Shown here: piece by piece, positions 5,318 through 58,765 of the stretch
Layout: the number at the start of each line of letters is the position of its first letter
How positions within the stretch are numbered: position 1 is the first letter of the stretch
Source: Romanomermis culicivorax
Taxonomy: Eukaryota; Nematoda; Enoplea; Mermithida; Mermithidae
NCBI GenBank assembly: GCA_963922205.1
Contig: CAWUHX010000081.1
Coordinates: forward strand, 124,001-188,000
Length of the DNA stretch: 64,000 nucleotides
Direction of reading: 5' to 3'
The notes under the pieces: model-generated
What the model was told of the DNA's origin: nothing
The model's database searches: none
The model's input: only the letters and a program-made list of their open reading frames with translations
Made by a program: the position numbers and the translations under genes

Positions 5318-6149
5318 CAGCGTTTTTTTTTTGTGCACAGACATTTGTGCCAATTGGCACAAGAGGCCAAAAAAATTTGTGCCAATGGCACAAAAATTTT
5401 TTTTTACTAAAGACATACTGAAAACTGCGGAAAAGTTTTAGGCCAAAAGTTTGATACAAAGTTATTGTTTAACGCATTAATTTTTTGTAAAAATCGTGCC
5501 CAACCTATTTTTCAACTAACCATGACAGTGAGAAGAGATAAAACTGTGCAACAAAATAGTTCACGAAATCCAAAAAAGAAATGGAATGCTGAGACAATTT
5601 AAATAGCTCTAGAATTGTTCAGGAAGTTCAAATTGATTCAATTTTCGACTACGAACGAATGTATATTAAACAACCATGTAAAGACTAGAGAAAATAAAGT
5701 CGAAAATCGTGTTAATTTTCGACCGAAATATTGTACCATTGTCAACGATATCGATTTTTCTATTTGAATCAATCAAACACAAAAAGTAACTATTTCAGTT
5801 TTAAATCCGAATCTCTGACTTAATGAAGAGAGAATATTCAGGATTTCTTTTCACTCATCAGTCTCGACAGCCTATAAAGTTTGCTGCAACGATACTAATA
5901 CACTGTTCAAAGAGAAATCGTTCGCGTTCGGGTCAAATATACGAATGGGAAATATTATATTCATTGATTCGGCGCGAAGCGCCGAAAATTGTTTGCATTT
6001 TCAGCTCCTAAAACGTCTAAAAATGAAGGAAATTTAATGTTTGACCAGCCTAAAAATTTGTGCCAATTGGCACAAACGCTCAAAATTTTTTGTGCCATTC
6101 CAAATTTTTTTGTGCCAAAAACCATGTTTTGGCACAAAAAAAAACACTG
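5318..6149. mobile_element. Family B MITE, copy B1 (832 bp, 8-bp target duplication)
   Basis: The element starts CAGCGTTTTTTTTTTGTGC and ends GGCACAAAAAAAAACACTG, so the termini are imperfect inverted repeats. It is flanked by a perfect 8-bp duplication GGTGGCAG (5310-5317 and 6150-6157), the size expected of hAT-type transposition. TGTGCC/GGCACA motifs, including palindromic TTGTGCCAATTGGCACAA, are clustered at both ends. The hairpin TCGGCGCGAAGCGCCGA lies at 5969-5985. There is no transposase frame, so it is non-autonomous. Confidence 0.9.
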
Positions 6150-6356
6150 GGTGGCAGTGTTGCCAAGTTAGGGGTTTTTCCCCAAATGTAGGAGTTTTTT
6201 TGATGGCGTTGAGGTTTTTTAGGGGTTTTTTGTTTCAGAGGTTTTTTATTTTTATTTTTGAGGTTTTGGGGTTTTTTTCCACGAATGGGCCTGTTTGAAT
6301 TTTGTGTGCTTGATGGAGAATTACTGTATAGAAAAAAGAAAAAAGTGTGATGAAAT

Positions 6357-7197
6357 CAGCGTTTTTTTGTGCACGGACATTTGTGCCAATTGGCACAAAG
6401 GGCCAAAAAAATTTGTGCCAATGGCACAAAAAAAAATTTCACTCTAAAAGCGTACTGAAAACCTTGAGAAAGTTTTGTGCCAAAAGTTTGATAAAAACTA
6501 TAACTAAAGACACTTTCACCGCATTAATTTGCATAAAAATCGTGCCTGCTCTATTTTCTCTAACCACGTCAGTGAAATAAGAAAAACTGATCTAGAAAAC
6601 GGTTTCTGCGATCCGAAAAGAAATTGAATGCTGCGAAAATTCAGATATTTTTATATACTTTTTGTCATGAAGTTTTCCTTTAAGCTTTTCGGCTTCCTTC
6701 CTAACAACTATTAAAGATGAGATTAGGATGTCTTGTCTATAATTGCTTTCTCGTGAAAAAAGCTAGGTCCTAAGTCGCCTCGCATAAATTTTTGGTTGAA
6801 TAATTGTGCCAAAAATGTCGATTTTTTTGTGTGAATACAACACCAAATATATAAGTTTCGGTTCTCAATCCAGCTGAATGAACAGAGAAAGTTAATAATT
6901 TCTATCTTTTAGCCAGTCATTGACAATCTCAGAGTCTGTCGCGATAATAAAAATATACTATTCGAATAGGATCCGCTTTCGTTTTTGAGACAAAGGAAAG
7001 TAGTTAATATTAAACTCATTGAATCGGCGCGAAGCGCTGCGAAAATTTCGCGTTTTCAGCCCTTAGAATGACTAAAAATAAAGGAAATTTAGCCTTGGAC
7101 CAGTCAAAAAATTTGTGCCAATTGGCACAAACGCTCAAAATTTTTTGTGCCATCCCAAATTTTTTTGTGCCAAAAACCATGTTTTGGCACAAAAAAA
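6357..7197. mobile_element. Family B MITE, copy B2
   Basis: A close relative of the reverse complement of copy B4 (56663-57501) across nearly its full length. It begins CAGCGTTTTTTTGTGCACGG and carries TTGTGCCAATTGGCACAA near both ends, with the GGCGCGAAGCGC hairpin near 7025-7038. The right terminus has lost the expected CACTG, and no clean target duplication is visible. No coding capacity. Confidence 0.85.
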
Positions 7198-7369
7198 TGA
7201 ATATTGATTGAATAGTGTGGCCAGTTTCTGTAATTTGCAATTGAATTAGCATGTTTTTGTCTTAATTACCAAATTTTGGCTTTTGGAGCAGCGTGTTTTT
7301 TTCCAAAAAATTTCCTTAAAGTAATAATAAAAATGAATGAATTTAGGGTAAGGTTAAGTGGGGTGACTT

Positions 7370-8050
7370 TGATCAGCTGATCAGAGAATTGTTCACGATA
7401 GATTCCATAATTTTACAACTAACACAGCAGAGGGATATAGGCCTGTAATCTCCTTTCTTGATGATTGGTATTAGATTTGCTTGATTCCAGAAACTAAGAA
7501 TTGAAGAAGTTTAGAAGGAAACTTCAAAAATACTGGTTAATGGAATGGCTAGGTGGTGTGCCAGTTTTTTGTAGAAATGTGCACATAAACCGTCAGGTCC
7601 AAGAGCATAGGAGGAATTCTTTTTTTTAATTTCAGTAGTGACTAGTTCAACAGAGAATCGCACAGATGTAAGTTTTGACTTGGCTCTTAAGGGAAAATCA
7701 GGAATAGAACAATCATCAATCTTAAAGACTGATGAGAAATAATCGTTGAATAATCCACTGATTTCTTTTGGATCATGAACAACAGTATGGGCATCTTTTC
7801 GTATGGGGGGAACTTGACTACTGGTGCTCAATTTAGAGTTTACAAAATTATAGAAAGATTTAGGGTTATTTTTGCGAATTATTTTCTCTTCAATAGAAGC
7901 CTGATGAGCAGAGATTAATTTCTTCAGGTGTAAAGAATGAGACTTGTATTTCAGTTTATCTGCAATAGTTCTAGATGATTTGTACCTTCTCCATAGAGTC
8001 AACTTTTTAGAGAATGCCTTCTTAATATTTTTAGGATAGCATATTTTATT
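7370..8050 (-). pseudogene. Non-LTR retrotransposon reverse transcriptase fragment
   Basis: Read on the minus strand from about 8050, a frame encodes the part upstream of and including the first reverse transcriptase motifs, with ALGPDGLCAHFYKKL followed by IFEVSF. After a frameshift near 7511 the next conserved piece, IPIIKKGDYRPISLCC..SCKIMES, is readable down to about 7370. The endonuclease and the YADD catalytic block are absent. It matches the relics at 14.9-16.7 and 59.3-61.2 kb and is a truncated, dead copy of a jockey/CR1-like LINE. Confidence 0.8.
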
Positions 8051-8168
8051 TGATCAGGTTTTAAAATGTTTAGTAAAAAAACTATAAATTCGTTCAAATT
8101 TAACATTGAATTATACATTTAATTTGCATTTTCACTAAATATATTCACTATTATTCTATTGTAGCAGG

Positions 8169-9173
8169 CAGTGCTTTTCCCCCAAATCGTTCTTTTTTTG
8201 GAAAAAATTTTAGAAAAGGAAAAAAATTTTGAACTCTTTCCCCATTTGGGGAAGAATATTTTGGGGATATGATTCACAAAAGATACATTTTGGTGAATTT
8301 TAGAGGATCATAATCTCCAAATTTTCTGGCGCTTCGTGCCCGTTATAACTTCAATAATCATTATTATGTATATTACCTAGCTCAAGCGCAGCTTTTAGCA
8401 TGTCTACCTTCACTTATCACTTTATCTATATAATAGTTGTCATCATCTTAAACGTATTATCTTATGTTTGTTTCAATTGGTAATCTTCAATATTTTATCT
8501 TGATATTTAATAAAGATTCGCATTTTTTCCTTGGCACATTTTTTGAGAAAGGTCGATACATCGTCTCTAAATTTTTTGAAGCGAATATTCTTTTCTAAAC
8601 GTGAAATCGATTCAAAAGCTTCATGGAAGTAGTTTTCGGAAATTTCTACTCGTCTTACTCATTTCTTTTCGACCAAGTTCATGAGAGTTAATGAATAAAT
8701 TACTGGTTTTGAAATTTTTCAAATAATAAAATTGTAGAAAATACAACTTTTGAGCACAAAATTCGAATCTATTTCTTGAAATAAATGTTCGGAAAGTTGA
8801 TTTTCCAGCGTCACAGAATGCCAATCCCAAAAAATTTTTCCGGCGCCTAGCGTCGGAAAGATTAATATCTTTTTTCGGGCTCTCACTTGACATCCTAGAG
8901 GACTTAAGCATCGATTTCTCATGTAATTCAAAGTCAGTATGCTCCTGGATGGTTTGCTGGAAAATTTGTTCCACAATGCTTGTAGATTAGACCTCGATCA
9001 AACTCGAAAATTTCAATTTTTCCCTCAATTTTGATAAATTAACGGCTCTAAAAACACCAGAAGGTTTGAAAAAGTTCAAAAACACATACATAAATAAGGA
9101 ATCTGTAAGCATTTTTAAGCGAAAAATTTGGGGAAATATGGAAAAAATTTTGCTGGGTGCAGAAAAAACACTG
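8169..9173. mobile_element. Family A MITE, copy A1 (~1.0 kb, TTCCCC-type ends)
   Basis: Starts CAGTGCTTTTCCCC and ends GAAAAAACACTG. Its body is shared with A2 (11498-12602) and with the reverse complement of A3 (53604-54706), for example the block near 8520-9000 around TTCCACAATGCTTGTAGATT. Subterminal motifs here are TTCCCC/GGGGAA (palindrome near 8240). Short open frames on the minus strand are not convincingly coding. Clean target duplication not seen. Confidence 0.75.
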
Positions 9174-9179
9174 AGTATG

Positions 9180-9690
9180 GATTAGAATTAGGATTAGGAG
9201 GCTTAGAAATTAGAGATTTTGTGTTGTATTTGTGCAAGCACTGCAAGCTGAGGCTTAAGCATCGTTTAAGAAGCTTCTAACTGAATTTCTGAATCTTTTC
9301 AAAATTAAAACATGCAGGTTCAATTTAGTTTGATCTTTGAAGTTTGAAACCCACAATTTTCTGACAGTATTGTTGGACAGTATTCTACGTGTGCGATATG
9401 GCTTGGTTTTAAGGAATGAAAGTTGTAATTCTTTTACTGTAACAAAACCTATGTTGAAAAAATTTACGTGTATGATCATTCAAACAGTTTGGTGCAGCGA
9501 TTGGCTGAATGTGATGATGAAGACGAAATTCTGCAGCTAGCAGCTGAATAAAGTTGTTGATTCTTAAAAAACTTATGCCTGATTTATTTTTTCATCTATG
9601 AATTGAATTTATTCTATGTTTTCAAGAATTGGGGTTTTTCTAGGGATTTTCAAAAATTTTTGAGGTTTTCTAGGGGTTTTGTGGATTGAT
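9180..9690. other. Unassigned spacer
   Basis: Contains a short GGATTAGGA run near 9190-9200 and open frames of 67-74 residues with no recognisable similarity. I see no supported feature. Confidence 0.4.
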
Positions 9691-9700
9691 TGAGGTTTTT

Positions 9701-9862
9701 GCTAGGTGGACTCGAGTCCATCTAAGGGGTTTTTCAACAAGATGGACTCGGGTCCATCTAGCCATTTTGTGGGTTTCGGCTAGATGGGCTCGAGTCTATT
9801 TAGCCATTTTGTGGGTTTTGGCTAGATGGACTCAAGTCCATCGGACTCAAGTCCATCTAGCC
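9701..9862. repeat. Array of GATGGACTCGAGTCCATC palindromes
   Basis: Four palindromic units, each a variant of GATGGACTCGAGTCCATC with CTAG-type flanks, lie at 9701-9725, 9740-9762, 9779-9804 and 9820-9862; the last is a partly doubled unit. Spacers are short, and two are near-identical (CCATTTTGTGGGTTT). The surrounding DNA repeats GAGGTTTT/GGGGTTTT phrases also seen near 6170-6270. Confidence 0.85.
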
Positions 9863-10339
9863 ACTGCCGAAAATTTTAAAGGAAAAATTAATGAAAAATA
9901 CATATTAGGCGAAAACCTGTCTGGGGGAAAATGGGAAAATAAATTTTTTACTTCTTCCGCCATTTGAGGAAGAGGCACAGGGCAAAAAACAGCGACTTAT
10001 ATCCGACAGAAACTTAATTTACTAATGATGCCTAATTTGAAATTCCGCGCGAAGCGCTGGAAAATTTTCAGTATTTCCCTTTTAAAACGCATATAATGCA
10101 TTTTCGACATCTCAAAAATTTTGACTAATCAACAAGGGGGCGGTAATTTTGGTCAATCAAAAGAGGGCTAACGCTTCGTCCCTATGCATGGTAAAAAATG
10201 AACTCAATTTCGATTACAGTGCACAAGAATACATTATAGAAAGAAAGAAAGAAATTTATTAAATGCGAATAAATACACGAGTAAATGCGACTAATACAGA
10301 AAAGCTCATGGACGTGACCAAAGCACGTATATATAAATA

Positions 10340-11285
10340 CATGGCCGTGCGCAAGGCCGCCCCCCCCCCCCCCCCATTGAGGCAGTAACTCTAAACCGAA
10401 AAGATGCGTTTTGGTGGACTTTAAAAGGTCAAAATCTCAAAATTTTCCGGCGCTTCGCGCCGGTCATGTATAATTATAACTATATTCTATCAGGCGCGGC
10501 CGTTAGCATATCTACTTCGACTTACTAATTAATGCTCAACAGTTTCTATCAGACAAGTTAGATCGTTTCATTTTCTAATCGTTTACAGTCAATTATGTCG
10601 CCGAAAATAGAGATTTTTCATCATGTCTCTCAATTTTTTCCCTCGATGATTGGAATTTTTTAAACGTTTGCAATCTGAATTTTTGCGTTTATTGAAGGTG
10701 GAAATTGAAGACATTACTCTAGAACGCGATTTCAAAACATTTGTTCACGAATTATCTGTTGGAGAGATTTATTTTTCAGCGTTTTAGGATACAAAAACCC
10801 AATAATTTTTCCGGCGCTTCGCGCCGGAATGGAAGGCAAATTACGCTTCATCAGTCTGATTTTAATTTATTTCCCAACGTTATGAAGGTTCATTTTCCAG
10901 CGTTTTAGAAAGTGAAAATCAAAAAATTTTTCCGGCGCTCCGCGCCGGACCATTCTATAGAACACCAATATATTCTTCATGAGCTCATTTTGACTAACAT
11001 AACCAGAATTTTCTCAATTTTTTTCCTCATTTTTGCAGGTTTCTGACTACAACAAAATGCTTGGGTATGCTCCTAAAATGCATAAAAAAGCAACCGTAGC
11101 CACATTATAAGCGTTTTTAAAAATGTGGAAAAAAATTTTGGTTCCGGTTCTCATGTGGAAAAAATCTTCGAGGAAAAAAAACCATGATGCACATAGTATA
11201 TCCGCGTAAGATCAACATTTCTGGGACTATTCAGTGAAAAAATCTAGTCCGCCCCCCCCATGAAAAAATCCTGCGCACGGCCCTG
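10340..11285. mobile_element. hAT-type MITE, copy C1 (946 bp, perfect 8-bp duplication)
   Basis: Left end CATGGCCGTGCGCAAGG and right end (complement) CAGGGCCGTGCGCAGGA form hAT-style terminal inverted repeats. The flanking duplication TATAAATA is perfect (10332-10339, 11286-11293). The interior carries CCGGCGCTTCGCGCCGG at 10447-10463 and 10811-10827 and a one-base variant at 10932-10948, and is shared with C2 (28448) and C3 (55965), although those copies have different termini. No transposase. Confidence 0.93.
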
Positions 11286-11338
11286 TATAAATAAATGTTC
11301 TTTAGAATGCAACTCCCTGGATCAATATACAAAATCTA

Positions 11339-11489
11339 CAACCATGTATCTGCAGTAACTCTATGAGTTCCATCCCATTGACGATATATCGAGATATTCT
11401 GATCGAGTGATACGCAGGTTCTTGGTGAACTCGATTTAATTTCTTCTCGATCAAAGTTACTATATAGGACTTCGATCCGCCTCCGAAAC
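11339..11489 (-). other. Possible 3' terminal coding fragment
   Basis: A minus-strand open frame outside any repeat encodes about 50 residues ending YRQWDGTHRVTADTWL before a stop. If C1 (inserted downstream) is ignored, a candidate polyadenylation signal AATAAA follows near 10255-10260. The upstream side is cut by element A2. I do not recognise the protein; it may be the end of a gene or retroelement destroyed by insertions, or chance. Confidence 0.2.
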
Positions 11490-11497
11490 GCTGTGTT

Positions 11498-12602
11498 CAC
11501 TGTTTTTTCCACATTTGCACTATAATGTGGAAAAAATTTTTGAGGTCTTTCCACAAATGTGGAAGAAAAAATTGGGGTTTTCATATCGAAAAGATGCATT
11601 TTGGTGCATTTTAGGAAGTCCTAATGTCAAAATTTTAACTTTAACTTTTTTTTTATTTTTTATTTTACTTTTTTTTTTTTTACTTTTATTTTTTAACATA
11701 TTTTTATTTTGAAATTTTTTAACTTTTAACTTAATTATTTTGATTATTTTGAAAATTTTAATTATTTTGAAATTTTTTAACTTTTAACTTAAATTGTAAC
11801 TTTAATAATCAACATTATTTATTGAGTAACTCAGGCGCGGCTTTTATCATGTCTACCTTCATTTATCGCTTAATCTATATTAGTTTTCATCATCTTAAAC
11901 GTATTATCTCATGTTTTAATTGATAATCTTCAATATTTTATCATGATATTTAATAAAGATTCGCATTTTTTCCTTTTGAGAAAGATCAATACGTCAAGTC
12001 TCTACGCTTTTTGATGGGATTATTTCTTTGCTAACGTAAAATCTATTCAAAAGCTTCCTGGAAATATCTTTCGGAAATTTATACTCTTCTTACTCATATA
12101 TTTTCGACCAAGTTCATGAGAGTTTACAAATAAATTATAGATTTAAAAATTTTTCAAGTAAAATTCTAGAAATTCCGACCTTTGAACACAAATTTGGAAT
12201 CTAATTCTTGAAATAAATGTTCGGAAAATTGATTTTCCAGCATCCCGGAATGTCAATAAAACATCTTTTTTGGGCCTTCGCTTGTCATCATAGAGGACTT
12301 GACCATCGATTTTTCGTGTAGTGTAATTCAAGTCAATTATGCTCTTGGATAGTTTGCCGGAAAATTTATTCCACAATGCTTGTAGATTAGGCTTTAAAGT
12401 CGAACATTTCAATTTTAATGAATTAGCTTCTCTAAAAACGTTGGAAAGCTTGAAAAGGCTCAAAAACAGTGCGATGAAGCGTCTGTGAGCATTTCTAAGC
12501 GAAAAAACGAGGATTTTAAGACGAAAAAAATTTTTTCCACGTGTCGAAAAAAATTTTACCCCTTTCCACATTTGTGGAAAGAAGTTCGTGGAAAAAACAG
12601 TG
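11498..12602. mobile_element. Family A MITE, copy A2 (1,105 bp, perfect 8-bp duplication)
   Basis: Ends are CACTGTTTTTTCCAC and its exact complement GTGGAAAAAACAGTG. Target duplication GCTGTGTT is perfect (11490-11497 and 12603-12610). Subterminal motifs are TTCCACA/TGTGGAA, including TTTCCACAAATGTGGAAG near 11540 and the matching palindrome near 12565. A T-rich block (11640-11790) replaces part of the interior. Non-autonomous; the open frame on the minus strand at its right end is an accident of the repeat. Confidence 0.92.
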
Positions 12603-12622
12603 GCTGTGTTATCCACAAAAAA

Positions 12623-12835
12623 CAGTTTTTTTTGTGCCAAAACATGGTTTTTGGCACAAAAAAATTTGGAATGGCACAAAAAATTTTGAGCGTTTGTGCC
12701 AATTGGCACAAAATTTTTGGCTGGTCAAACATTCAATTTCCTTGATTTTTAGACGTTTTAGGAGCTGAAAATACCAAAAATTTTCGATTCAATGAATATA
12801 ATATTTCCTACTACTCGTATAGGAACGAGTATATT
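12623..12835. mobile_element. Family B MITE fragment, copy B3 (one end only)
   Basis: Begins CAGTTTTTTTTGTGCC and reproduces the terminal ~200 bases of B4 (56663 onward), including the GGCACA/TGTGCC cluster and the TTGTGCCAATTGGCACAA palindrome near 12694. It lacks the rest of the element, ending in unrelated sequence. Confidence 0.8.
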
Positions 12836-12849
12836 TTAGCCGAAACTCT

Positions 12850-13022
12850 CAAATTTGCTCAAATTGGGCTCTTTCAAGTAGTCTGACACTCGAGTAAATC
12901 AACCAGCACATTTTCAAAGCACGGAGTGGCACCTACAGAAAAATCCTACCTACATCAAGAATCGACCCTGGTCCACCAGCCTATGGACTTAATGCGTGTA
13001 CCACTACACAATTTCCCCAGAA
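12850..13022 (-). mobile_element. Probable tRNA-derived SINE
   Basis: On the minus strand, GTGTAGTGGTACACGC (12994-13009) resembles an RNA polymerase III A box region, and GGGTCGATTCTT (12957-12968) resembles a B box (consensus GGTTCGANTCC). Their spacing, about 30 bases, is what a tRNA-derived promoter has. A body of about 100 bases follows toward 12850. It does not fold cleanly as a functional tRNA by eye, so a SINE head is preferred over a tRNA gene. Confidence 0.55.
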
Positions 13023-13420
13023 AGTATCAACACTATATTCTTTTAAGACCCTTGATACTATTTAAACTAACAACTTCATTTGGAAGAGCTTCAACAGCGC
13101 TCTGCGCCCTTCGGGGGCAACTGCTGTACCTTAAGCCTAAGCCTAAGGAAAATTTACTCACTAAGCACAGAAATCGATGAAAATCGAAATTATTAAAATA
13201 CTAAACTCAAATTAGATTTCCAAATCTGTTGACTTTCGACAATAAAGGGTAATATGTCTAACATGGTCTGAAAATTTGCATAATATATATAAAAGTCTGA
13301 AAATAGTTATATGTGTATTTTATGGCAAAATACCCTGCAGAATTTGAACCGGTCGTTCAAATTTCATCATTTTTTCTTTCCGCGCTTCCACTTTACCTTT
13401 AATAATTAAAAACAACCAGA

Positions 13421-14415
13421 GGTCCCCAAGGTCGAAAATTTAGGTAGGGGTAAAATCGTAAATTTTAAGGGTAGTACTTGAAATATGCCGTGACCTTTTT
13501 TTTTGCTCCTAACTTTTCGCGAAGGAGGGGGGAGTTGTAGTACTCTAACAACCACATAGAACTTACAAACATGAATAATGCCATATAATGCCATTACTTT
13601 ATGCTTTTTACAGTCAAATAACATTTACTATTTCAACTCCATTTAACTTTAATACAGTAATTATACGTACAGAATAGTCACACTTTTCACATTGTTGTGC
13701 CAACTGATTCCTGCACATTTCAAGAATCGGGCACAACATACGTTTGGAAACATTGTTTCAACCAGCATCTTCAGCAGTATGGGCTTATCCCATCACTGAT
13801 TAGGCTTCGAACAGTGCTTCCAATTGAAAGTGTTGCTGCCGAATGTGGATCCCATTACATTATGAACCACGAGTTTCAACGGACCTCGCATGTCTCAACT
13901 CTTAGCAGGAAAGTATGCCACAGCTTGGGTGGAGAAATATAACCATATGCGCACAGAAGACCCAACGCAGAAGTCGGAAAAACGGAAAAAGGAAAGGAGA
14001 GTATGAAGAGGAAAGATTTTAAGAACATAATGTTTTTCTTCCCAGGGGGCGATTTTTTGATTAATCACATATGCATAAGTCATTATTTCATCTCCCAATT
14101 ATATTTATAATGATTTCCTACAAGTAGTGTATATTAATGTGCTGATATCATTTCCTAAAAATCGCTATATGGCACAGAAGTTGCATACTTTTCCATTATC
14201 ATTTGCTCAGTAAATGTGTCAAAGAGAGCAGTGAGTAATTCCTCAGAATTACACATTCTGCAATTTTTCTCGAATTGGTATAACCTACTGGGGAGAAGAT
14301 GAAGTCTACCAAAATTTTTTGCTAGAGTGAGCTGTTTTTATGCGGGTAGTAAATGAATTTCCAAATCTAAGACGGGGGTAATACCCCCCCATACCCCCCC
14401 ACGGGGTGCTCTGAA
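13421..14415. repeat. Family D repeat, copy D1 (~1 kb)
   Basis: Starts GTCCCCAAGGTCGAAA and runs to the poly-C palindrome ATACCCCCCCCATACC near 14380-14400. A second copy in the same orientation lies at 19113-20140. A short frame near 13697-13942, part of which (SGTTYVWKHCFNQHLQQYGL) is also open in the other copy, could be a remnant of a transposon protein, but I do not recognise it. No terminal inverted repeats found. Confidence 0.8.
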
Positions 14416-14439
14416 AATAACTATTTATGGTATTAACGC

Positions 14440-14817
14440 TGGGTGAATTCATTTCGGGCGCTCCGCTTCCGAAATGAATTTTACCCCTCGTATTGGACCC
14501 GAACGCGAGCGATTTCTCTTCGAACAGTGTATTAGAGTATCGTTGCAGAAAACTTTACAGGCTGTTAATGACTGATGAATGTTCTCTGTTCATTTGGTCA
14601 GATTCGGATTTAAAACTGAAATCCTTAATTTTTGTGTTTGATTGATTCTAATAGAAAAATAGAAATCGTTGATACACTGTTTCGACCGAAAATTTACACA
14701 ATTTTAGACTTTATTCTCTCTACATTATATAAATATTCGCATTCGAAAATTGAATCGATTTGAACTTCCTGAACAATTCTAGAGTTATTCAAATTTTCTC
14801 AGCATTCCGTTTCTTTT
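14440..14817. mobile_element. Family B MITE fragment, copy B8
   Basis: Reverse complement of the 5575-5985 interval of B1, including the ATTTGAACTTCCTGAACAAT block and a decayed hairpin (GGGCGCTCCGCTTCCG, near 14457). Its right side is cut where the LINE relic begins (about 14818), which suggests the LINE inserted into or recombined with it. Confidence 0.7.
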
Positions 14818-14869
14818 TAAGTCGCCGTGAACTATTTTCTTGCAGTTTTTTCGTATTTTATGAATCTCC

Positions 14870-28447: not shown

Positions 28448-29255
28448 CAGTGGCGGACACAGGGACGGGGGGACGCCCACCAACTTTTATTCCCAAATGA
28501 TGGTTCAAATGGAATTCAAAACCGAAAAGATGCATTTTGGTTGACTTCAGAAGGTCAAAATCTCAAAATGTTGGTCATGGGTATAATAATTATTATTTGC
28601 TGTCAGGCGTGGCCGTTAGCATATCTACTTCCACTTACTAATTAATCTTCAACAGTTTCTATCAATTGAAAGACCTCGTCTCATTTTGTAATCAATAACA
28701 GTCAGTATTTCGCCGAAAATTGAGATTTTTCATGAATTCTCTCAATTTTTCTCTCGGGCCTTGAAATTTTTGAAACGTTAACAACATGAACTTTTGCATT
28801 TATAGGCGATGCAGATTAAAGTCATCATTCTAGACTCTAATTTTAGAGCTTCTATTCAGGGATATTTGTTGCAGAGATTCATTTTCCCGCGTTTCAGAAT
28901 ATAAAAATCCGAAAATTTTTCCGGGGCTTGGCGCCAGAATAAGAAACAAATTACGTTTTATTAGTTTGATTTTAATTTATTTCTCAACGTTGTGAAGGTT
29001 CATTTTCCAGCGTTTTAGATAGTGAAAATCCAAAAAATTTTGCGGCGCTCCACGCCGGACAAAGAAATAATTATAATTCTCTAATTGAAAATAAGTACAA
29101 TTCTCTAGTCGGCTCGATTATTTGATATTTTTTACTGTTGTCCCTCATCTTTTTAATTTGAGGAAAAAATCGTTTGTATTTCAATGCAAGTACAAAAATA
29201 TAAAAATTGCTTTTCCGTCCCCCCCACCCGAAAAAAATTCCTGCGTTCGCCACTG
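28448..29255. mobile_element. hAT-type MITE, copy C2 (808 bp)
   Basis: Left end CAGTGGCGGACACAGG and right end (complement) CAGTGGCGAACGCAGGAATT are hAT-style termini. Flanks AATATATG (28440-28447) and AATGTATG (29256-29263) are an 8-bp duplication with one mismatch. The interior matches C1 over several hundred bases (for example GGCCGTTAGCATATCTACTT). Hairpins have decayed to CCGGGGCTTGGCGCC and GCGGCGCTCCACGCC. Located about 400 bases beyond the STOML1 stop codon. Confidence 0.9.
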
Positions 29256-47950: not shown

Positions 47951-47951
47951 C

Positions 47952-49925: not shown

Positions 49926-50398
49926 AGGAAAACCAGAATTTCAGTTCAACGATGTGTCTAAAATTCCGTCATTCGTGAATTTTGAAAATTCGATACTGAA
50001 ACTTCTTATTTGGCTGCCTATTTTAGTTGCAGCATTACTTCCTCAGAAGATTCAGAGAGTATCAATAACGTATACTGTCGGATGATACGCCTTGCCGACG
50101 GGTTAAAAAATCCCGGTCAGGCCCGTCCATTTCCCACCAGGCATAAGCCAAGTCGACCACCGGCTCGTGATTAATCACTTTCACTTAATATACTCATCAA
50201 ATGAGTTTCTCTATTCGGTGGCTGTCATGAAGGTACAAAGGTTCAAATTTGATCTGGCCTATCTACAACAGATTTTTTTATTACCGAAAAAGAGCGTTTT
50301 TATTCATTTGACGACACTCGTCTTCTTTTTTTCTGACATTACGTTTTGGCGCACTATTTTTCAGTCAACAATAAATAAATAGGACGCGAAAAATACTT

Positions 50399-50680
50399 AT
50401 GGCCAAAATCCAGATTCCCCGTCAAAATACACCACCAACACAAGTACCGGTATCAGAAAACAAACAACTTGATTTGATATCTAGGTCGTTCCGACGCTGG
50501 AACGTATCTTGTCCTGATGATTGTGTTCAACAATTTAAATTTTATCAGACTTGGCATCTTGAATGTCCTAGTGTGCACGTCTTTCAGCATTATTGTCATT
50601 CAGATTTAGTCGAAAAAGTAGAATTTGAACATCACATGGCAAAACATCTGACGTTGGACTACACAATTACGAATAAATAA
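50399..50680 (+). CDS. Unrecognised open frame upstream of FMO
   Basis: 93 codons starting MAKIQIPRQNTPPTQVPV and including NVSCPDDCVQQFKFYQTWHL. Balanced codon use and no repeat similarity make it one of the more protein-like short frames, and it ends 116 bases before the FMO start codon. No domain is recognised; it could be an exon of an unannotated gene or chance. Confidence 0.25.
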   Translation: MAKIQIPRQNTPPTQVPVSENKQLDLISRSFRRWNVSCPDDCVQQFKFYQTWHLECPSVHVFQHYCHSDLVEKVEFEHHMAKHLTLDYTITNK

Positions 50681-50795
50681 TGAGCTAAGCTGCTAGCAAC
50701 AAAAGCTTCGTTACTTCATATTCCTTTCGGCCAAAAGCAGCTTGTCGTTTTCATTCTGCTATTCTCGAGAATATACATGCTTATTTAGAGTCATA

Positions 50796-50937
50796 ATGAA
50801 GGTAGCCATAATTGGTGCAGGCGTCAGCGGCCTAATTTGTATAAAGGTATGCAAGGATTACGGATTCGATATCGTCTGTTTCGAAAAAACGAACGATATT
50901 GGTGGACTGTGGAGATACAAAGACGAAGACTATGAGG
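50796..50937 (+). CDS. FMO: FMO exon 1
   Basis: Encodes residues 1-47 and one base of codon 48; donor GAGG|GTAAGC. The ATG at 50796 puts the Rossmann GxGxxG at residue 7, as expected; an upstream in-frame ATG at 50742 would add 18 unneeded residues. Confidence 0.93.
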
Positions 50938-53900
50938 GTAAGCAAGAGCGAAAACGCAACAGAAGACTGTAGATCTTCAGGTAGGGATGAAGTTCAAATT
51001 TTGTATGAAAAAAACCTTTTCTCCTCGAAGTTGGGCGACTTTTTTGGGTCGGGGGCCAGCGATTAGCCAAAATTTTGGGGGGAAGGAGTTTGGCGACTTT
51101 TTTGGGTCGAGGGCCAGTGATAAGCCAAAATTTTGTTGGGAAGGGTCTCTGAAGGAAAAAAATCGATTACTTCACAAAAAAATCGTAAAATGCTTCAAAA
51201 AATAGTAATTTTTATCTAAAAAACCGTAAAAAATGTATTCATGGCGCGAAGAGACGAAAAAATTGACGTTTTTGACCATTTTTTATTCAAAAATTGACAT
51301 TTTCCGTCAAAAAATTGATATTTTTCAGTTTACGACCAAAAGTATGGTTAGCCAAAGGATTGGAAAACCCTGGGGATGGCGAAATGGCTAGCCATATGAC
51401 CGACGATTTCTCGGGGGGTCCTATAGCACTTCCACCCAATTACATGTATGCTCACAATATTAAATATCCCCAGTTATTCATTTTTAGGACTTTTGACAGC
51501 GGTAATACCCCTTCATACCCCTCCCTATCTTGTGGTCTGGTACCGAAGTTGATATCTTATTTTAGACATTTTTCGATTACAACCCAAATACTTCAGTCAT
51601 TGTAACAACTACGTCAACAATTGTGTATCGGGAGCATATATCGACTCCCAATCCGAATAGATGGCAACATCTAACGCAGTTTTTGTCATTGCTTAGTCTT
51701 GATCAGTGTTGAATTCAAGTTTTGAACTCTCATAACTCACTCAAAAACGTAGAGCATTTACTTAAAAGGGTGGCTGTGATTTTTGAACAAATCTCGCCTC
51801 GAAAAAGTCTACTGGTTGATGTCCAACGTGTTGTCTATAAGAAAAAATCACTTACAGTACTCATTGAGAAAAATCCCCAAAATTGAAATCAAATTTACTG
51901 TCTACTAAGTCGTAGATTTTATGTTTCTTTCATTTTTAAAATACACCTGCCTTTAGAATGGTAACTGGTAGTGATGCAAGCAAGAGAAATTTCACTGAAC
52001 TTCGCAAATTATACAAGTGAAATATTCAAACAGCATCAGTCATTCTTGTGAGGATCGCAGGATGAAGAGATAGAAATGATCTTTAGTAGCCCAACAAATG
52101 TCAATGCGAAAATTCTTTCAAGGACAAGCTTCAGTGATGAAATCGACTATCATAAACACCAGCAAGGAATTAATGGCGTTTAGCGATTATCCGCCACCGG
52201 CCGAGTTTCCAAACTTTATGCACAACACGAAGGTTTTAGAGTACACGCAAATGTATGCCAAGCACTTCGACCTTTTGTCCTACATCAAATTCTGCCACGA
52301 GGTGACCTCGGTGAAAAAAGATAAAAATTACACGCAAAATGGAAAATGGAATGTGCATTATGCGAAAAAAGACAACGAACAGTAAGAAATGTTCGTAAAA
52401 ACCAGATAGAATCGAAAGTCATTCTTTTTTACAGGGAGGTGCAGGATGTGGAGATCTTCGATGCAGTTTTCGTTGCTATTGGACATCACGTTTATCCGCA
52501 CGTACCACATTTCGATGGCATAGAAAACTTTAAAGGGCGGGTTATTCACAGCCACGCCTATAAACATCAAAAAAGTTACCATGATCGCAAAGCAGTTGTT
52601 GTTGGAATTGGAAATTCTGGTGGAGATATCGCCGTCGAATTGGCGCGTGTTGCAGAAAAGGTGTGAAAACTACAGAACTGTGCGACCGGCGTATGGATTT
52701 TTTAACCGCTTACTGAATGTTCAGCACACAATAGTAGACATTCATTCAATGCAGATCTGCGGGAGGTCAGTCGGACTTTTTGCGGATGGGGTCATACTCA
52801 TTGTTCGTTCAAAACTTATGCACAGGATCATCGAATGAAAAATAAAAAAATATAAAAAGGCCGAAAAATAATTCAATGGACAGTGCTTTTGCTTGGAAAA
52901 CAAGCGCCGAAAAAACTGACATTTTTGAGAATTTTTTGTTCAAAAAAGACGATTTTCTACCAAAATAACACATTTTTCAGTTTTTTCCGAATAGATGTGC
53001 TAGCCATTAGAGATGTATCGGGTAGTATATTTTGAAAATATCGGGTCCAGGTCAAAAATTTTAAGAATATAGGGTTTGTGTCAAAATTTTGAAAATATCG
53101 GTCAGAGTCCAACAAAGTGGTCGGGTAATTTCGGGTCCGGATACCTGATACATCTCTAATATCGGATCCAGGTCCACTCCAAAATTTTAAGAATATCGGG
53201 TCGGATCCAACAAAATGGCCGGATAATTTTGGGTCTTGTTTCGGGTCCGGATACCCTATACATCTCTACTAGCCATACAGCTGACGGTTGCTAGGGGGTT
53301 CTTATTGCACTTCCCCAATAGTTATTGACGTTGAACAATTAGTTTTACACAAAAAAAATTTATTCGCAGAGTAACACACTCGTCAGGGAACTTATATATA
53401 CTTATTCTTAAGCGAAATTTTTTAATGAAAATCGTGGAAAAGTGTAATAAAAGTAAAAAGTAAACTTGAAAGAAAATTAAAATCAATTATTCTCAGCGAA
53501 TTTCGATAAAATATTTTTTGACTATTTTTCAATATTTTTTGTTTTTGTTTAGAACTAGCATATTTTAGATCATTTGAAGTGTTTAACAAGCAATGCTCTC
53601 GGTCAGTGTTTTTTATTCTGCACCGGGCTTTCTGCAGAAAAACCAAAAAAAAATTTCTGCACCGCGGTTTTCTCCTATTACCACTGTTTTTTCCCCGGGC
53701 CTTTTCCCCAAATGGGGAAGCGGTCAAAATTTGTTACCCTATTTTCCCGAAGTCGTTTTTCGCTTCAAACTCCTCAGAGACGCTTTATTTATGTATTTTT
53801 GAGCTTTTTCAAACCTTCTGCTGTTTTTTAAAGCCGTTAATTCATTGAAATTGAGGAAACATTTGAAATTTTTGAGTTTGATCGAAGTCTAATCTACAAG

Positions 53901-55791
53901 CATTGTAGAACAAATTTTCCAGCAAACTATCCAAGAGCATAATGACTTCGAATTACATGAGAAATCAACGGTTAAGTCCTCTATGATGACAAGTGAGAGC
54001 CGAAAAAACAGATACTAATCTTTCCGACACAGAGCGCCGGAAAATTTTTTTTGCGTATTCACATTCCGCAACACTGGAAAATCAATTTTCCAAACATTTA
54101 TTTCAAGAATTACATTCGAATTTTGTGTTCAAAAGTCGTATAATTTCTAGAATTTTATATTTGAAAAAATTTAAAACCAGTAATTTATTCGCAAACTCTC
54201 ATGAACTTGGCCGAAAAGATATGAGTAAGAAGAGTAGAAATTTCCGAAAACTAATTCCATGAAGCTTTCGGATTGATTTGACGTTAAGAAAGGAATATTC
54301 GATTCAAAAAGTTCACAGACTTGACGTATTGATCCTTCTCAAAAAATGTGTCAAGGAAAAAATGTGAATCTTCATAAAATATCAAGATAAAATATTGAAG
54401 ATTACCAATTAAAACATGATATAATACGTTTAAGATGATAAAATCTATTGAAGATTAAATGATAAGTGAAGCTAGACATGTTAAAAGCCGCACCTGAGCT
54501 AGGAAATAAATAAAATAACAATGCTTATTAAACTTAAAACCGGCACGAAGCGTCGGGAAATTTCGAGATTATGACGTTCTAAAATGCACCAAAATACATC
54601 TTTTCTGTATCTGTTGTGATCAAACACATGGTTAAAAAAATTCTGCACCAGTGCAGAAGTCAACAAAAAAAATTCTGCACGGAGCCTAAAGAGTCCGCCC
54701 GCACTGTGCACAAAAAACAATTTTTTCACCCTATGTACAACACAGTAAAGTATACAATTTTTTACGCAACTTACCAAAACTTAACACCTATCTATGCCCT
54801 GCTTCTTCAGGTCTACCTGGCAACTCGACGCGGCAGCTGGTGCTTGGCGCGCATCGGAAATTACGGCATTCCTGCTGATATGCTGATAGTCCGTCGTATC
54901 GTTCACTATTTGGCCAAATACGTGTCCATGTGGCCAATCAAACGGTTCGTCGAATGGCAAGCTAATCTGAATTTCGACCATGAACTCTACGGTTTAGCTT
55001 GCGATCACGAAATCAGCGCCCAACATCCTATGGTGAACGACGAATTGCCCAATCGCATCATGTCGGGTGGAATTTGTATAAAACCGGATATCAAAAGCTT
55101 TCTGGACGGAAATACCATACTCTTCAAAGATGGATCAACAGTAACAGGCGTGAATGACGTCATTTTATGCACTGGTTACGATATTTCGTTTCCGATTATC
55201 GATCAAAAAATATTGGAAGTCAAACAAAATCGCGTGGACACCCTGTACAAAAATATTTTTCCCATAAATTTGGAGCACGCCACATTATTTTTCATCGGTT
55301 TGGTTCAACCTATAGGTGCTATAGCGCCCATTTCTGAAATGCAGGCTCGATTGTGTTGCGAAGTTTTGTGTCGGAATGTCATCTTACCGAATGTCGAAAA
55401 AATGAAAATTTTGAGCCGACAAGAACACGAAAAAGTGTACAAAAGGTACGTGGAATCTCGGCGACATACCATCCAAGTGGACTACATAGAGTACACGGAT
55501 AATTTAGCCGAATTGATCCACGCCAAACCAAATTGGTTGAAGATTTTGTTCAAAGATCCCAAATTGGCGTGGACTTTGTTTTTTGCGCCTACTGCTCCTT
55601 ATCAATACAGGCTGCAAGGACCACAGTCTTGGCCTGGTGCGAGAGAAGCTCTTTTAACTATATGGGATAGAACTTTCCAGCCTCTCAAATCCGGACGCTG
55701 TTACACTCGCAAGAGAAGTTCTTCAAAAATGTATTTGATTTGCATATTTTTAGTGTTCTCCATCATTGTAATTTGGTATTTTTTGCTGTGA
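50796..55791 (+). CDS. FMO: Flavin-containing monooxygenase (FMO5-like), 4 exons
   Basis: Exons 50796-50937, 52123-52381, 52435-52660 and 54811-55791 join in phase to 535 residues, close to the 533 of human FMO5. FMOs use FAD and NADPH to insert oxygen into soft nucleophiles, or in FMO5 to carry out Baeyer-Villiger oxidation. Visible motifs: FAD-binding GAGVSG (7-12) and DIGGLW (34-39); the FMO signature FxGxxxHxxxY as [11 protein letters not shown] (166-176); NADPH-binding GIGNSGGD (191-198); the ATGY-type box as LCTGYD (328-333). The last ~20 residues ([20 protein letters not shown]) form a C-terminal membrane anchor typical of ER-bound FMOs. [15 protein letters not shown] and [13 protein letters not shown] are closest, from memory, to FMO5. 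Introns 1 and 3 hold several transposons. Confidence 0.95.
51010..51452. repeat. Family E repeat, copy E4, in FMO intron 1
   Basis: Contains CCAAAATTTTGGGGGGAAGG (with a duplicated GGCGACTTTTTTGGGTCG block), GGCGCGAAGAGACGA near 51243 (decayed hairpin), and ends CCCAATTACATGTATG. Same orientation as E1. Confidence 0.75.
52123..52381 (+). CDS. FMO: FMO exon 2
   Basis: Acceptor TTCTTTCAAG, donor ACA|GTAAGA. Encodes [20 protein letters not shown], then [20 protein letters not shown], conserved in FMOs. Confidence 0.94.
52435..52660 (+). CDS. FMO: FMO exon 3
   Basis: Acceptor TTTTTTACAG, donor AAAAG|GTGTGA; the intron before it is 53 bases. Encodes the FMO signature and the NADPH-binding loop (GIGNSGGD). 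Confidence 0.94.
52855..53335. repeat. Family E repeat, copy E6, interrupted by a family G element
   Basis: AAGCGCCGAAAAAACTGACA (52904) and TTTTTTCCGAATAGATGTGC belong to family E; after the G element (53008-53268) the E sequence resumes with ACAGCTGACGGTTGCTAGGG. Located in FMO intron 3. Confidence 0.65.
53008..53268. mobile_element. Family G MITE (261 bp) with perfect 8-bp duplication
   Basis: Starts TAGAGATGTATCGGGTA and ends with TACCCTATACATCTCTA, an almost perfect inverted terminus. Flanks CTAGCCAT (53000-53007, 53269-53276) are identical. The body is made of ATCGGGTC-type phrases. Terminus and duplication size fit hAT-type transposition. Confidence 0.93.
53604..54706. mobile_element. 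Family A MITE, copy A3 (~1.1 kb, TTCTGCAC-type ends) in FMO intron 3
   Basis: Starts CAGTGTTTTTTATTCTGCAC; right side has TTCTGCACCAGTGCAGAA near 54642 and ends near CACTG at 54702-54706. The body is the reverse complement of A1/A2 (for example AATCTACAAGCATTGTAGAA near 53890). Hairpin decayed to CCGGCACGAAGCGTCGG near 54540. Both CCCCAAATGGGG and TTCTGCAC modules occur at the left. No clean target duplication. Confidence 0.78.
54811..55791 (+). CDS. FMO: FMO exon 4 (stop)
   Basis: Acceptor CTTCTTCAG. Encodes [19 protein letters not shown] through the C-terminal anchor; the frame is open further upstream only into family A sequence, so the splice acceptor at 54810 is preferred. Stop TGA at 55789-55791. 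Confidence 0.95.
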   Translation, partial: VYLATRRGSWCLARIGNYGIPADMLIVRRIVHYLAKYVSMWPIKRFVEWQANLNFDHELYGLACDHEISAQHPMVNDELPNRIMSGGICIKPDIKSFLDGNTILFKDGSTVTGVNDVILCTGYDISFPIIDQKILEVKQNRVDTLYKNIFPINLEHATLFFIGLVQPIGAIAPISEMQARLCCEVLCRNVILPNVEKMKILSRQEHEKVYKRYVESRRHTIQVDYIEYTDNLAELIHAKPNWLKILFKDPKLAWTLFFAPTAPYQYRLQGPQSWPGAREALLTIWDRTFQPLKSGRCYTRKRSSSKMYLICIFLVFSIIVIWYFLL

Positions 55792-55964
55792 ACCATACGC
55801 AGAAGCTCATTTATCGAGCTCGAACAGAACTCATGTGCCTTAGTGTAAACCAAAACAGTTTCTTTACTGACACTTGTGAATTAACTGGCGTTGTATTTGT
55901 GACTGAAATTATCAGCATTACTGTAGATAGCGTTCACAGTTTTTCCTTGCGTGGACTGCTGCAG

Positions 55965-56643
55965 CACCGTTTTTTTTTCCTCAAATGGGGTCTTTTGAGG
56001 AAAAAAATTTCGAAATGAGGAAAAAAATTTTGGGTATGGTTCTCATTGAAGAAAAAATTTTGGGGAATTCAAAACCGAAAAGATGCGTTTTGGCGGACTT
56101 AAAAGGGTCAAAATCTCAATTTTCCGGCGCTTCGCGCCGGTCACGGGTACAACAATCTTGACTATTTTCTATCAGGCGCGGCCATTAGCATATCTACTTC
56201 GACTTACTAATTAATGCTCAACAGTTTCTTCCAGCGTTTTAGAAAGTGAAAAGCCAAAAAATTTTTCGGTGCTCTGCGCCGGACCAAGAGCTAAATAAAA
56301 TTAGATGATTCTAATCGGAACCACCAAAATGTCAATAGAGCGGATAAATTCCTGAGAACTCTATCGTTAACATGCTTCACCTACTTCTGTAGAACACCAA
56401 TATATTCTTCATGAGCTCATTTTTAACAAACATAACCAGAATTTTCTCAATTTTTTCCTCATTTTTGCAGGTTTCTGACTCCGAATACAACAAAATGCTT
56501 GGGTATGCTCTTAAAATGCATAAAAAAGCATCCGTAGCCACATTATAAGCGTTTTTAAAAATGAGGAAAATTTTTGGAAAATGAGGAAAAAATTTTTGGG
56601 TCCGGTTCTCATGTGGAAAAAATCTTCGAGGAAAAAAACGGTG
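55965..56643. mobile_element. Family C MITE, copy C3 (679 bp, TTCCTC-type ends)
   Basis: Ends CACCGTTTTTTTTCCTC and the complement of CACCGTTTTTTTCCTCG. Flanks TGCTGCAG (55957-55964) and CACTGCAG (56644-56651) agree at 6 of 8 positions. Interior matches C1, with CCGGCGCTTCGCGCCGG at 56124-56140. It begins about 170 bases after the FMO stop codon. Confidence 0.85.
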
Positions 56644-56662
56644 CACTGCAGTGCGAGTGCAC

Positions 56663-57501
56663 CAGTGTTTTTTTTGTGCCAAAACGTGGTTTTTGGCACA
56701 AAAAATTTGGGATGGCACAAAAAATTTTGAGCGTTTGGCCCAATTGGCACAAATTTTTTGACTGGTCCAAGGCTAAATTTCCTTTATTTTTAGTCATTTT
56801 AGGGGCTGAAAACGCAAAATTTTCTCGGCGCTTCGCGCCGATTCAATGAGTTTAATATTAACTGCTTTCCTTTGTCTCAAAAACGCGAGCGGATTCTATT
56901 CGAATAGTATATTTTTATTATCGCAACAGACTTTGAGATAGTCAATGACTGGCTAAAAGGTAAAAATTATTAACTTTCTCTGTTCATTCAGTTGGATTGA
57001 GAACCGAAACTTATATTTTTGATGTTGATTCAAACAAAAAAATCGACATTTTTGGAACAATTATTCAATTAAAAATTTATGCGAGGCGACTTTCGACTAA
57101 GCTTTTTTTACGAGAAAGCAATTATTAGACAAGACATCCTAATCTCATTTTTAATAGTTGTTAGGAAGGAAGCCGAAAAATAAAGGAAAACTTCACGACA
57201 AAAAGTCCATAAAAATTTCTCAATTTTCGCAGCATTCAATTTTTTTTGGATCGTAGAAACCGTTTTCTAGATCATTTTTTCTTATCTCACTGACGTGGTT
57301 AGAGAAAATAGAGCAGGCACGATTTTTATGGCGGTGAAAGTATCTTTAGTTATAGTTTTTATCAAACTTTTGGCACAAAACCTTCCTAAGGTTTTCAGTA
57401 CTTACGTTTTTAGAGTGAAAAATTTTTTTGTGTAATTGGCACAAATTTTTTTGGCCCTTTGTGCCAGTTGGCACAAATTTCCGTGCACAAAAAAAACGCT
57501 G
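56663..57501. mobile_element. Family B MITE, copy B4 (839 bp, perfect 8-bp duplication)
   Basis: Starts CAGTGTTTTTTTTGTGCC and ends GTGCACAAAAAAAACGCTG. Duplication GAGTGCAC is perfect (56655-56662, 57502-57509); its last three bases are the first bases of A4, so B4 inserted at the very terminus of A4. Hairpin TCGGCGCTTCGCGCCGA at 56825-56841. Confidence 0.93.
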
Positions 57502-57506
57502 GAGTG

Positions 57507-58765
57507 CACTGTTTTTTTTCACGAACTTTTTTCCACTAATGTGGAAAGGGGTCAAATTTTTTTTCCACAGGTGGAAAAATTTGTTTTCGTCTTAAAATCC
57601 TCGTTTTTGCGCTTGAAAATGCTCATAAACGCTTTATTTAAGTGTTTTTGAGCTTTTTAAAGCATTCTGATAACCATTCTGATCATATAACTCAAAAATT
57701 AGATTTAAATTTTGTGTTCATAAATCGTAATTTCTAGAAATTTATCATTCGAAAAAATTTTAAAACCATTGATTTGTTCGTAACCTTTCATAAATTTGAC
57801 CGAAAAGTTATGAGTCAGAAGCGTAGAAATTTTCCAAAAATACTTCCATGAAGCTTTTGAATTGAATTTACGTCAAGAGAAGAACAAACGCTTTAAAAAG
57901 TTGAGAAAGTTGACGTATTGATCCTTCTCAAAAAATGTGTCAAGGAAAAAATGTGAATCTTCATTATATATCAAGATAAAATATTGAAGATTACCAATTA
58001 AAACATGAGATAATACGTTTAGAATGATGAAAATAGATTAAGTGATAAGTGAAGGTATAGACATGCTAGAAGCTGCACCTGAGCTAAGAAAAAAATAATG
58101 CTTATTAAAGTTATAACCAGCGCGAAGCGCCGAAAAATTTTGAGATTTGGACCTCCTAAAATGCACCAAAATGCATCTTTTCAATATGAAAACCCCAAAT
58201 TTTTTTTCCACATTTGTGGAAAGGCCTCAAAAAGTTTTTCCACATTCTAAATTTTTTTGGGTAATATGGCGAATATGTCCCTAGAGCAAAATTTTACAAA
58301 CAACATATTTTCTGATAGAGTTCATCATGCTGAATCTAATGAAATAAAAATAAACTTGCGGTCTCTAATATTTCGCGATTTATATTTTTGAATTTTCAGA
58401 CAAAATGGCTCTAAATTTAATCAGGATTTATAACATTACAAAAGATGATGATGAGTTAATTCGGATGTTACGTGTGTGGGGAGGGACATATAGGTTTAGG
58501 CTGCTCAGGCTTAGGCTTGGGGTTAGGCTTAGGGTCTACTGCTTAGGCTTAGGCTTAGGCTTTGCGAATAAAACGTTGACAATTTTTAAGTTGTTTTGTC
58601 TATATCTTTTGAACTACTTGTGATCGCAAGCTAGTTTTTATTTCGTTGGATGCAGAATGAAAAGTTGTTCTAGAAAACATAGTTTTTAAAAATTTTGGCG
58701 CTAGGGACATATTCGCCAAAAATTTCTTTTTTTCCACATTAGCGCAAATGTGAAAAAAACTGCTG
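57507..58765. mobile_element. Family A MITE, copy A4 (TTCCAC-type ends), interrupted by element K
   Basis: Left end CACTGTTTTTTTTCACG; TTTTTCCACTAATGTGGAAAG and CCACATTTGTGGAAAGG modules near 57528 and 58210. Shorter body than A1-A3 (a deletion near 57680). The right terminal module CCACATTAGCGCAAATGTG resumes after element K at 58735. Hairpin CAGCGCGAAGCGCCG near 58120. Confidence 0.82.
58267..58718. mobile_element. Element K (452 bp, ~108-bp inverted termini)
   Basis: TGGCGAATATGTCCCTAG (58267-58284) and its exact complement (58701-58718) begin inverted termini that stay similar for about 108 bases each. Between them is a cluster of TTAGGC units (58496-58562). The open frame 58405-58623 just reads the cluster (GLGLG-type residues) and is not a real gene. 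Confidence 0.85.

Follow-up and report, generated by a model that had tools for sequence, protein, structure and literature searches.

The BED domain of Hermes recognizes a short motif together with an obligatory AT-rich region, and a quasi-palindromic pair of motifs is bound cooperatively with a phasing that is crucial, as summarized in PMC10368747. The DNA-binding domains of hAT proteins are described as having very diverse specificities, the motifs of four tested proteins matching their own subterminal regions (summary of PMC8097297). The elements analyzed here lie in a stretch of 64,000 nucleotides of the nematode Romanomermis culicivorax (positions 124001-188000 of contig CAWUHX010000081.1), the whole of which is called the window below; genome-wide scans covered the 359.1 Mb assembly. 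They are short hAT-type elements whose interiors, or cores, of types A, B and C are bordered by arrays of a short repeated motif. Like Hermes, as outlined in PMC10368747, they have short repeated motifs at both ends, a quasi-palindromic pair, an arrangement that differs between left and right and an AT-rich flank. Unlike Hermes, where that outline gives one motif (AAGT) in one element, a single spacing carries here at least four motif sets, and the T-run ends have no transposase tied to them. A multitude of motifs is likewise found in the study of CGGBPs and hAT domains (PMC8097297), although that work, according to its summary, is protein-based, while here the divergence of the motifs is read on the DNA ends alone.

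Combinations of unlike ends and interiors have been described before. Galileo of Drosophila includes copies with ends or interior from different subfamilies, and the exchange was proposed to found new subfamilies; Galileo, however, belongs to the P superfamily, and its copies with two unlike ends are reported in the summary of that work without matching duplications and attributed to ectopic recombination or conversion (PMC3573991), whereas the composites described here retain duplications and nested states are present. Plant Mutator-like elements (MULEs) with tandem terminal inverted repeats (TIRs) resemble our elements in having extra terminal repeats stacked in tandem, and some of them were amplified; they differ in being Mutator-like, and different motif sets on one core do not figure in the abstract of that report (PMC3310237). 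The maize Ac/Ds elements, among them Ds2 and Ds-l4, share with ours hAT ends and subterminal repeats around filler interiors as well as 8-bp duplications, but Ds presents one end type with many interiors, while here one interior has several end types; nesting is called rarer for Ds in that report (PMC3260210), and here nested composites multiplied. Chimeric ends (Galileo), tandem terminal repeats (MULEs) and foreign interiors (Ds) are known already. In a limited search of the open-access literature we noticed no report of a core that passed through successive unlike hAT ends with the nested steps kept and a common scaffold under differing motifs.

We propose, with a probability of roughly three in four, that cores of miniature inverted-repeat transposable elements (MITEs) of the hAT type were captured by the ends of other hAT elements, on top of a divergence of motifs over a conserved scaffold. 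The eight copies named in a preliminary description of this DNA (B1, B2, B4, A1 to A4 and C3) are present about where it placed them, and two more end types enclose the C core in C1 and C2. The elements and their target-site duplications (TSDs) are as follows.

5318..6149, forward strand: B1, GTGCC-motif element with both ends; TSD GGTGGCAG (8/8).
6357..7199, forward strand: B2, GTGCC-motif element with a decayed right terminus; no TSD (3/8 at the boundaries tried).
8040..8168, forward strand: host flank left of A1, with the repeated-flank 30-mer at 8088; it ends in GTAGCAGG, one mismatch from the duplicated GTAACAGG.
8169..9173, forward strand: A1, A core with a left TTCCCC alpha end and right terminal TTCTGCAC; TSD score 1/8 at the boundaries tried.
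10340..11285, forward strand: C1, C core in GTGCGC outer ends; TSD TATAAATA (8/8), left junction GGCAGTAACTC.
11114..11190, forward strand: old CCTC/CCAC beta end buried within the C1 outer end.
11498..12602, forward strand: A2, A core with TTCCAC ends; TSD GCTGTGTT (8/8).
12623..12790, reverse strand: B4, truncated, GTGCC alpha end only.
28448..29255, forward strand: C2, C core in CAGTGGCGG ends; TSD AATATATG/AATGTATG (7/8, by eye).
53604..54714, reverse strand: A3, A core within outer TTCTGCAC ends; the right boundary is uncertain and there is no TSD (2/8 at the boundaries tried).
53682..53765, reverse strand: inner beta end of A3, complete, with TTCCCC motifs and a CACTG terminus of its own.
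55965..56643, forward strand: C3, C core with CCTC (partly CCAC) ends; TSD 6/8.
56663..57501, reverse strand: B3, GTGCC-motif element; TSD GAGTGCAC (8/8).
57507..58762, reverse strand: A4, A core with TTCCAC ends, another inverted-repeat element being inserted at about 58268-58719; TSD 7/8, unsure because the left flank overlaps the B3 insertion.
58766..61411, forward strand: B5, GTGCC-motif element split by sequence of a long interspersed nuclear element (LINE; about 59130-61190); no TSD (2/8 at the boundaries tried).

The hallmark of hAT insertion, an 8-bp duplication, is intact at B1, A2, B3 and C1. Among 50 sampled A-core loci (the first 30 listed and 20 picked from the remainder of the listing), 22 are flanked by 8/8 duplications and 4 more by 7/8, the mismatched-locus controls giving means of 0.15 and 0.20. 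Bounded ends have tips of the CA..TG type (CACTG, CAGTG, CACCG and CAGGG, some decayed to CGGTG or CGCTG), a type that the boundary search itself required, and the T-run is followed by a subterminal array of one short motif in both orientations. Mutator-like elements make duplications of about 9 bp and have long terminal inverted repeats. Membership of the tandem-TIR MULEs was ruled out by the 8-bp duplications and by left and right scaffolds that are dissimilar beyond the tip, and that of the P superfamily by the same duplications, those of Galileo being of 7 bp (PMC3573991, as summarized). The units are short, about 0.7-1.1 kb, with no hAT match in a Pfam scan limited to 4 window frames, and occur in high copy number, with 2605 genomic matches to a 28-base pattern of the A core and 2114 to a 31-base pattern of the C core (at most one mismatch; 0 matches to either reversed pattern). 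These features support the assignment of the A, B and C elements to non-autonomous hAT-type elements (MITEs), in agreement with the hAT affiliation first suggested for them.

The capture of a core could be followed in two cases. In the first one, GTGCGC ends surround the C core. The empty state is kept in L111, which contains the 154-bp host without the insert and with TCCCTAGT at either side. The left junction of the nested state, in which the host is followed by ATGCACAC and a left end of the C3 type, was found at 8 places (one mismatch in 3, two in 2 and three in 3; control 0), and the two nested places that were read, L122 and L123, have ATGCACAC at left and right junctions with the C core between them. 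L122 has three extra bases past the right ATGCACAC, and CTTACTTA/TTTACTTA (7/8) border its outer ends, indicating that host and insert moved together as one composite; for L123 the outer end on the right falls outside the sequence examined. C1 itself represents the deleted state: host meets core directly at GGCAGT-AACTC, a junction that is identical in the window copy and in 9 sampled copies and that occurs at 571 places genome-wide (control 0). Judged by eye, C1 has an outer end similar to that of a hAT element with an 864-amino-acid (aa) open frame, the only window end for which such a similarity was seen.

The second case is that of CTGCAC ends on the A core. The right junctions in A3 (one mismatch), L043, L064 and L087, and also in L061 and L076, suggest a duplication of GTAACAGG, and a left nested junction was therefore predicted. 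It was found at 82 places with at most one mismatch, the empty site with the two host flanks joined at 125 places with at most two mismatches, and the right junction at 502 places, all with controls of 0; the three patterns measure 19, 24 and 25 bases with 1, 2 and 2 mismatches, so the counts are not strictly comparable. Six left junctions were read, and all six show the same repeated host flank followed by GTAACAGG and an alpha end of the CCCC type, which in some is partly decayed or deleted. That right junctions outnumber left ones would fit an early loss of the left inner end, ahead of amplification. A1 also carries this host flank, with GTAGCAGG, and has no inner end on the right; it would be a nested copy from which that end was deleted, and its mixed ends and absent duplication would be accounted for. 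A1 is not the purely TTCCCC element first described, and A3, taken earlier for an array of mixed modules and a possible intermediate between motifs, is an end inside an end: the old CCCC end, complete with its CACTG tip at 53682, lies buried in the newer CTGCAC end at 53604, and the genome-wide junctions point to nesting. At the level of sequence, empty, nested and deleted states are present with their copy numbers in these two cases, besides the duplications and the scaffold similarity described below.

In the model, each end would work as a module formed by a CA..TG-type tip, a T-run and then phased repeats of one short motif in either orientation. A core element would insert into another hAT-type element, and the nested pair would be mobilized as one unit by the outer ends. 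One inner end would be removed by deletion and the shortened composite would amplify. Repeated rounds would produce stacked ends with the newest outermost. We infer this order of events, and we regard the motifs as putative binding sites of transposases (through their BED domains), each set answering to a different transposase.

Stacked ends recur beyond the two traced cases, and one core is found under different motif sets, as had been noted for A and is true of C too, whose core appears in three end sets within the window (C1, C2 and C3). The 26 A loci with 7/8 or 8/8 duplications comprise CCCC (14), GCC/GTAC (6), GCAC (3) and CTGCAC (2) types, the remaining one being a GCC/GTAC copy inside a CCGCAC element. 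The three GCAC copies (L047, L055 and L075) have a common flank and duplication, GTTTATAC, and are therefore not three independent insertions; probably they lie within one larger repeated unit. The CCAC alpha-end pattern has 1591 matches genome-wide, a count of ends whatever their interior. By eye, a remnant of a CCCC alpha end is enclosed by a GCC end, a CCCC beta end by CTGCAC ends, and L047 reads, from outside inwards, GCAC, CCAC, CTGCAC and core. C1-type copies have GTGCGC ends outside an old CCTC beta end, the old inner tip being readable in 8 sampled copies and exactly CGGTG in 4. The p-distances between A2 and A4 are 0.208 for the interior and 0.156 for the ends, those between A3 and A4 are 0.157 and 0.445, respectively, and on these values the ends of A1-A4 differ in history from the interiors. 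In the quartet of window copies the three groupings obtain 7, 8 and 4 interior sites, and none is favoured.

Underneath the different motifs there is a common scaffold. From the tip inwards, with m and m' for the two orientations and spacer lengths in brackets, the alpha end is ordered m(14)m'(14)m'(16)m(4)m' and the beta end m(8)m(4)m'(16)m(2-3)m', with small departures. This order is seen in the GTGCC (B), CCAC (A4) and CCCC classes and, with decay, in the CCTC class (C3); A2 is one alpha slot short, and the innermost beta slot differs between CCAC and CCCC. The scaffold was compared with the motifs masked and one copy per class, against shuffles in which slots, the lengths of spacers and homopolymer runs were preserved. 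Within the four classes, each of the 12 same-end comparisons gave similarity (z 2.8-6.8) and each of the 16 left/right comparisons none (z at most 1.4); in a first run restricted to window copies, 12 of 17 same-end pairs reached z 2.6-4.6, and none of the eight cross pairs exceeded z 0.7. The early idea of different motif sets on a common scaffold is borne out by the shared spacing of B, A4, CCCC-type and C3 ends. Four motif classes on one pair of unlike scaffolds, left and right, imply that the letters of the motifs diverged, with the positions of the slots and many of the A/T spacers being kept. It is likely, in view of the recognition and phasing outlined for the Hermes BED domain and of the diverse specificities summarized for hAT domains, that slots and A/T spacers would be fixed by the assembly of the transposase and the letters by the BED helix. 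Further end sets on the same cores (CTGCAC, GCAC, GCC/GTAC and GTGCGC) are without the shared alpha scaffold or outside its test.

Coordination of the slots within an array is strong in the CCCC class and partial in the CCTC class. In 13 bounded CCCC copies the slots hold CCCC forms or decayed ones (b2 and b3 in 13/13), two slots are one letter off the class form (a2 CGGGAA in 8/13, b5 TTCCCG in 11/13), and no CCAC, CCTC or GTGCC motif is listed in any slot. CCTC ends passed selection at 9 (alpha) and 17 (beta) of 30 C loci, with CCTC in the outermost slots a1 and b1 by construction because the selection patterns demand it. The beta array of the C core is a mixture at set slots, CCAC at slot 2 (16/17), CCTC at slot 4 (14/17) and CCAC at slot 5 (10/17), and alpha slot 5 reads GTGGAA in 5/9 and GAGGAA in 2/9. 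The claim that all motif positions change together consequently holds for the nearly uniform CCCC class, but only in part for the CCTC ends; C3, described as purely TTCCTC, has TTCCAC at the second slot of its right end like most genomic beta ends.

The different motif sets could also result from rewriting in place within one element lineage, the slots being changed together, by concerted evolution or gene conversion, as the DNA-binding domain of the transposase changed. This explanation is possible, with chances appreciably below even. It would account for the spacing and spacers common to four motif classes at both ends, for the CCAC and CCCC alpha ends that continue collinearly into the A core, for CCCC slots that are mostly uniform save decay, and for the two-motif mixture of the CCTC ends, such as a stepwise path would leave. 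Nevertheless, CTGCAC and GTGCGC ends came by nested insertion, stacked ends are additions outside rather than rewriting, and no autonomous lineage was seen to switch. Less probable still is an origin by abortive gap repair, a model for the filler DNA of maize Ds, in which the outer element would excise and the core be copied into the gap, leaving new ends around an old core. The GCC-type copies, where the old-end remnant begins in the middle of the CCCC end and no duplication is seen by eye, agree with it; in the two traced cases the inner element is flanked by 8-bp duplications, which repair would not make, and copying by repair is disfavoured there.

The hAT domain PF05699 is abundant in the genome, with 1837 candidate domains, of which 150 were scored and 32 had their 3′ flanks read by eye. 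A few flanks had no recognizable terminus (e.g. L100, L107 and L110). Pieces of the A and C families in L091, L106 and L110, and a CCGCAC-type MITE in L104, were taken as separate insertions. Many other subterminal repeat families are seen by eye past hAT coding ends (GGATCC, ATCCGGAT, CGGGTA, CGAGTC and others; L091-L093, L102, L103, L105, L108, L109, L111, L112, L114 and L118-L121). One hAT family (L094, L095, L097 and L098) has near-identical 3′ ends and two copies with 864-aa open frames, and is possibly recently active.

End types were placed on a tree of A cores with labels taken from signatures and corrected by eye; 10 of 54 copies were unlabelled and dropped, including L046, whose ends are GCC/GTAC. 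The 44 labelled copies require 10 end-type changes, where the least possible is 5 and the shuffled mean 23.1. A single core clade for the CCAC pair A2 and A4 is rejected (approximately unbiased test, p-AU 0.00045), as is one for the GCC/GTAC copies (p-AU 0.0009), L086 standing apart. The clustering indicates that descent covers most copies, and repeated acquisition or recombination the rest. Of the early question whether motif type follows core phylogeny, perfect descent fails and clustering stands, an answer in the middle in which exchange would account for the exceptions and for how the end types arose, and the histories of core and end do disagree in places, as A2 and A4 exemplify.

Several results weigh against capture over a conserved scaffold. 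The nested route is evidenced for two end sets only, with junction counts of unequal patterns, and 24 of the 50 sampled A loci are without clean boundaries. When 4 more copies with doubtful labels are removed from the core tree, the remaining 40 need 6 end-type changes with a least possible of 4, so that end type mostly follows core descent. In none of the 32 hAT flanks read was the element's own terminus judged to be one of the window's T-run motif arrays, and they included no autonomous element that had a T-run end set of any kind; the binding of the motifs is therefore a matter of inference. As to the scaffold, the test used a single copy per class, that of CCAC being A4 with its flanks joined around the insert, and 5 of the 17 same-end window pairs failed (B1-A2 with z 0.6, A2-C3 with z 1.5 and the three pairs that involve the outer beta end of A3 with z 0.1-0.8). 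Membership of the CTGCAC and GCAC ends in the four-class alpha scaffold was not supported (z at most 1.5), and their similarity to the beta scaffold is weak (z 0.3-2.6). In spacers segmented by hand, s2 and s3 agree, while s1 is not conserved between B1 and CCAC (2/12 and 3/14 identical).

These failed pairs, the unmatched CTGCAC and GCAC alpha ends, the divergent s1 and the A/T-rich spacers would suit convergence, in which AT-rich ends are alike since T- and A-runs are needed beside the motifs and no scaffold is shared; it is nonetheless improbable, as slots, homopolymer runs and the lengths of spacers were all retained by the shuffles, and pairs of left with right ends scored z at most 1.4. 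Simple descent with faster-evolving ends and no exchange is the least credible explanation: it agrees with the clustering on the core tree in both sets of copies but is contradicted by the nested junctions of two cases, the stacked ends, the similar ends of A2 and A4 on cores separated by the tree and the C core in three end sets.

The window also holds exons of an FMO-like gene, pieces of LINE reverse transcriptase and many short transposons. It has 23 listed open reading frames of at least 110 aa, and a Pfam scan limited to 4 of them gave no hAT match. C3, B3, A4 and B5 directly abut (55960-61411), with B3 inserted in or beside the tip of A4, and the inverted-repeat element within A4 is a separate one (GGCGAATATGTCCCTAG...). 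The C host site was seemingly hit in both orientations (L110 and L122, by eye), and element ends may be favoured insertion targets. Palindromes like GATGGACTCGAGTCCATC form an array at 9650-9870, whose tip, on the minus strand, is CAGTGG; this may be a further end type with a motif of its own. At 9880-10010, a beta-type end in decay has TTCCTC/GGCGGAA motifs and the tip CAGCG (CGCTG, minus strand); it may represent one more motif class, attached to a remnant of the A core. A piece like TTTTAG..AAAATC.C.AAAATTTT-CCGGCGCTTCGCGCCGG, containing a GC-rich palindrome, is common to the A, B and C cores (e.g. 10790-10830, 10905-10950, 56795-56845 and 7020-7065) and occurs more than once in C1. Neither the B palindrome nor the GC-rich core piece had a pattern match in viral contigs (0 each), and the B palindrome, scanned alone in genome contigs, gave one bacterial match that was taken as chance.

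The general view of non-autonomous elements is that they need a matching transposase and disappear once it is gone. The stages of end capture, preserved as separate genomic copies for two end sets, provide a concrete route by which a MITE core would outlive its transposase: a core that has lost its enzyme may find a new one through the capture of ends. We suggest more tentatively, as something a little short of an even chance, that the ends are a phased scaffold with interchangeable letters whose specificity was switched several times, most slots following, so that stacked ends would be a stratigraphy of past transposases and the succession of hAT elements could be read from MITE ends. The shared scaffold with its different motif sets would be a natural series on the joint change of the hAT DNA-binding domain and its site. 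Both the survival of a MITE core beyond its transposase and this co-change of domain and site can be tested with existing sequence data.

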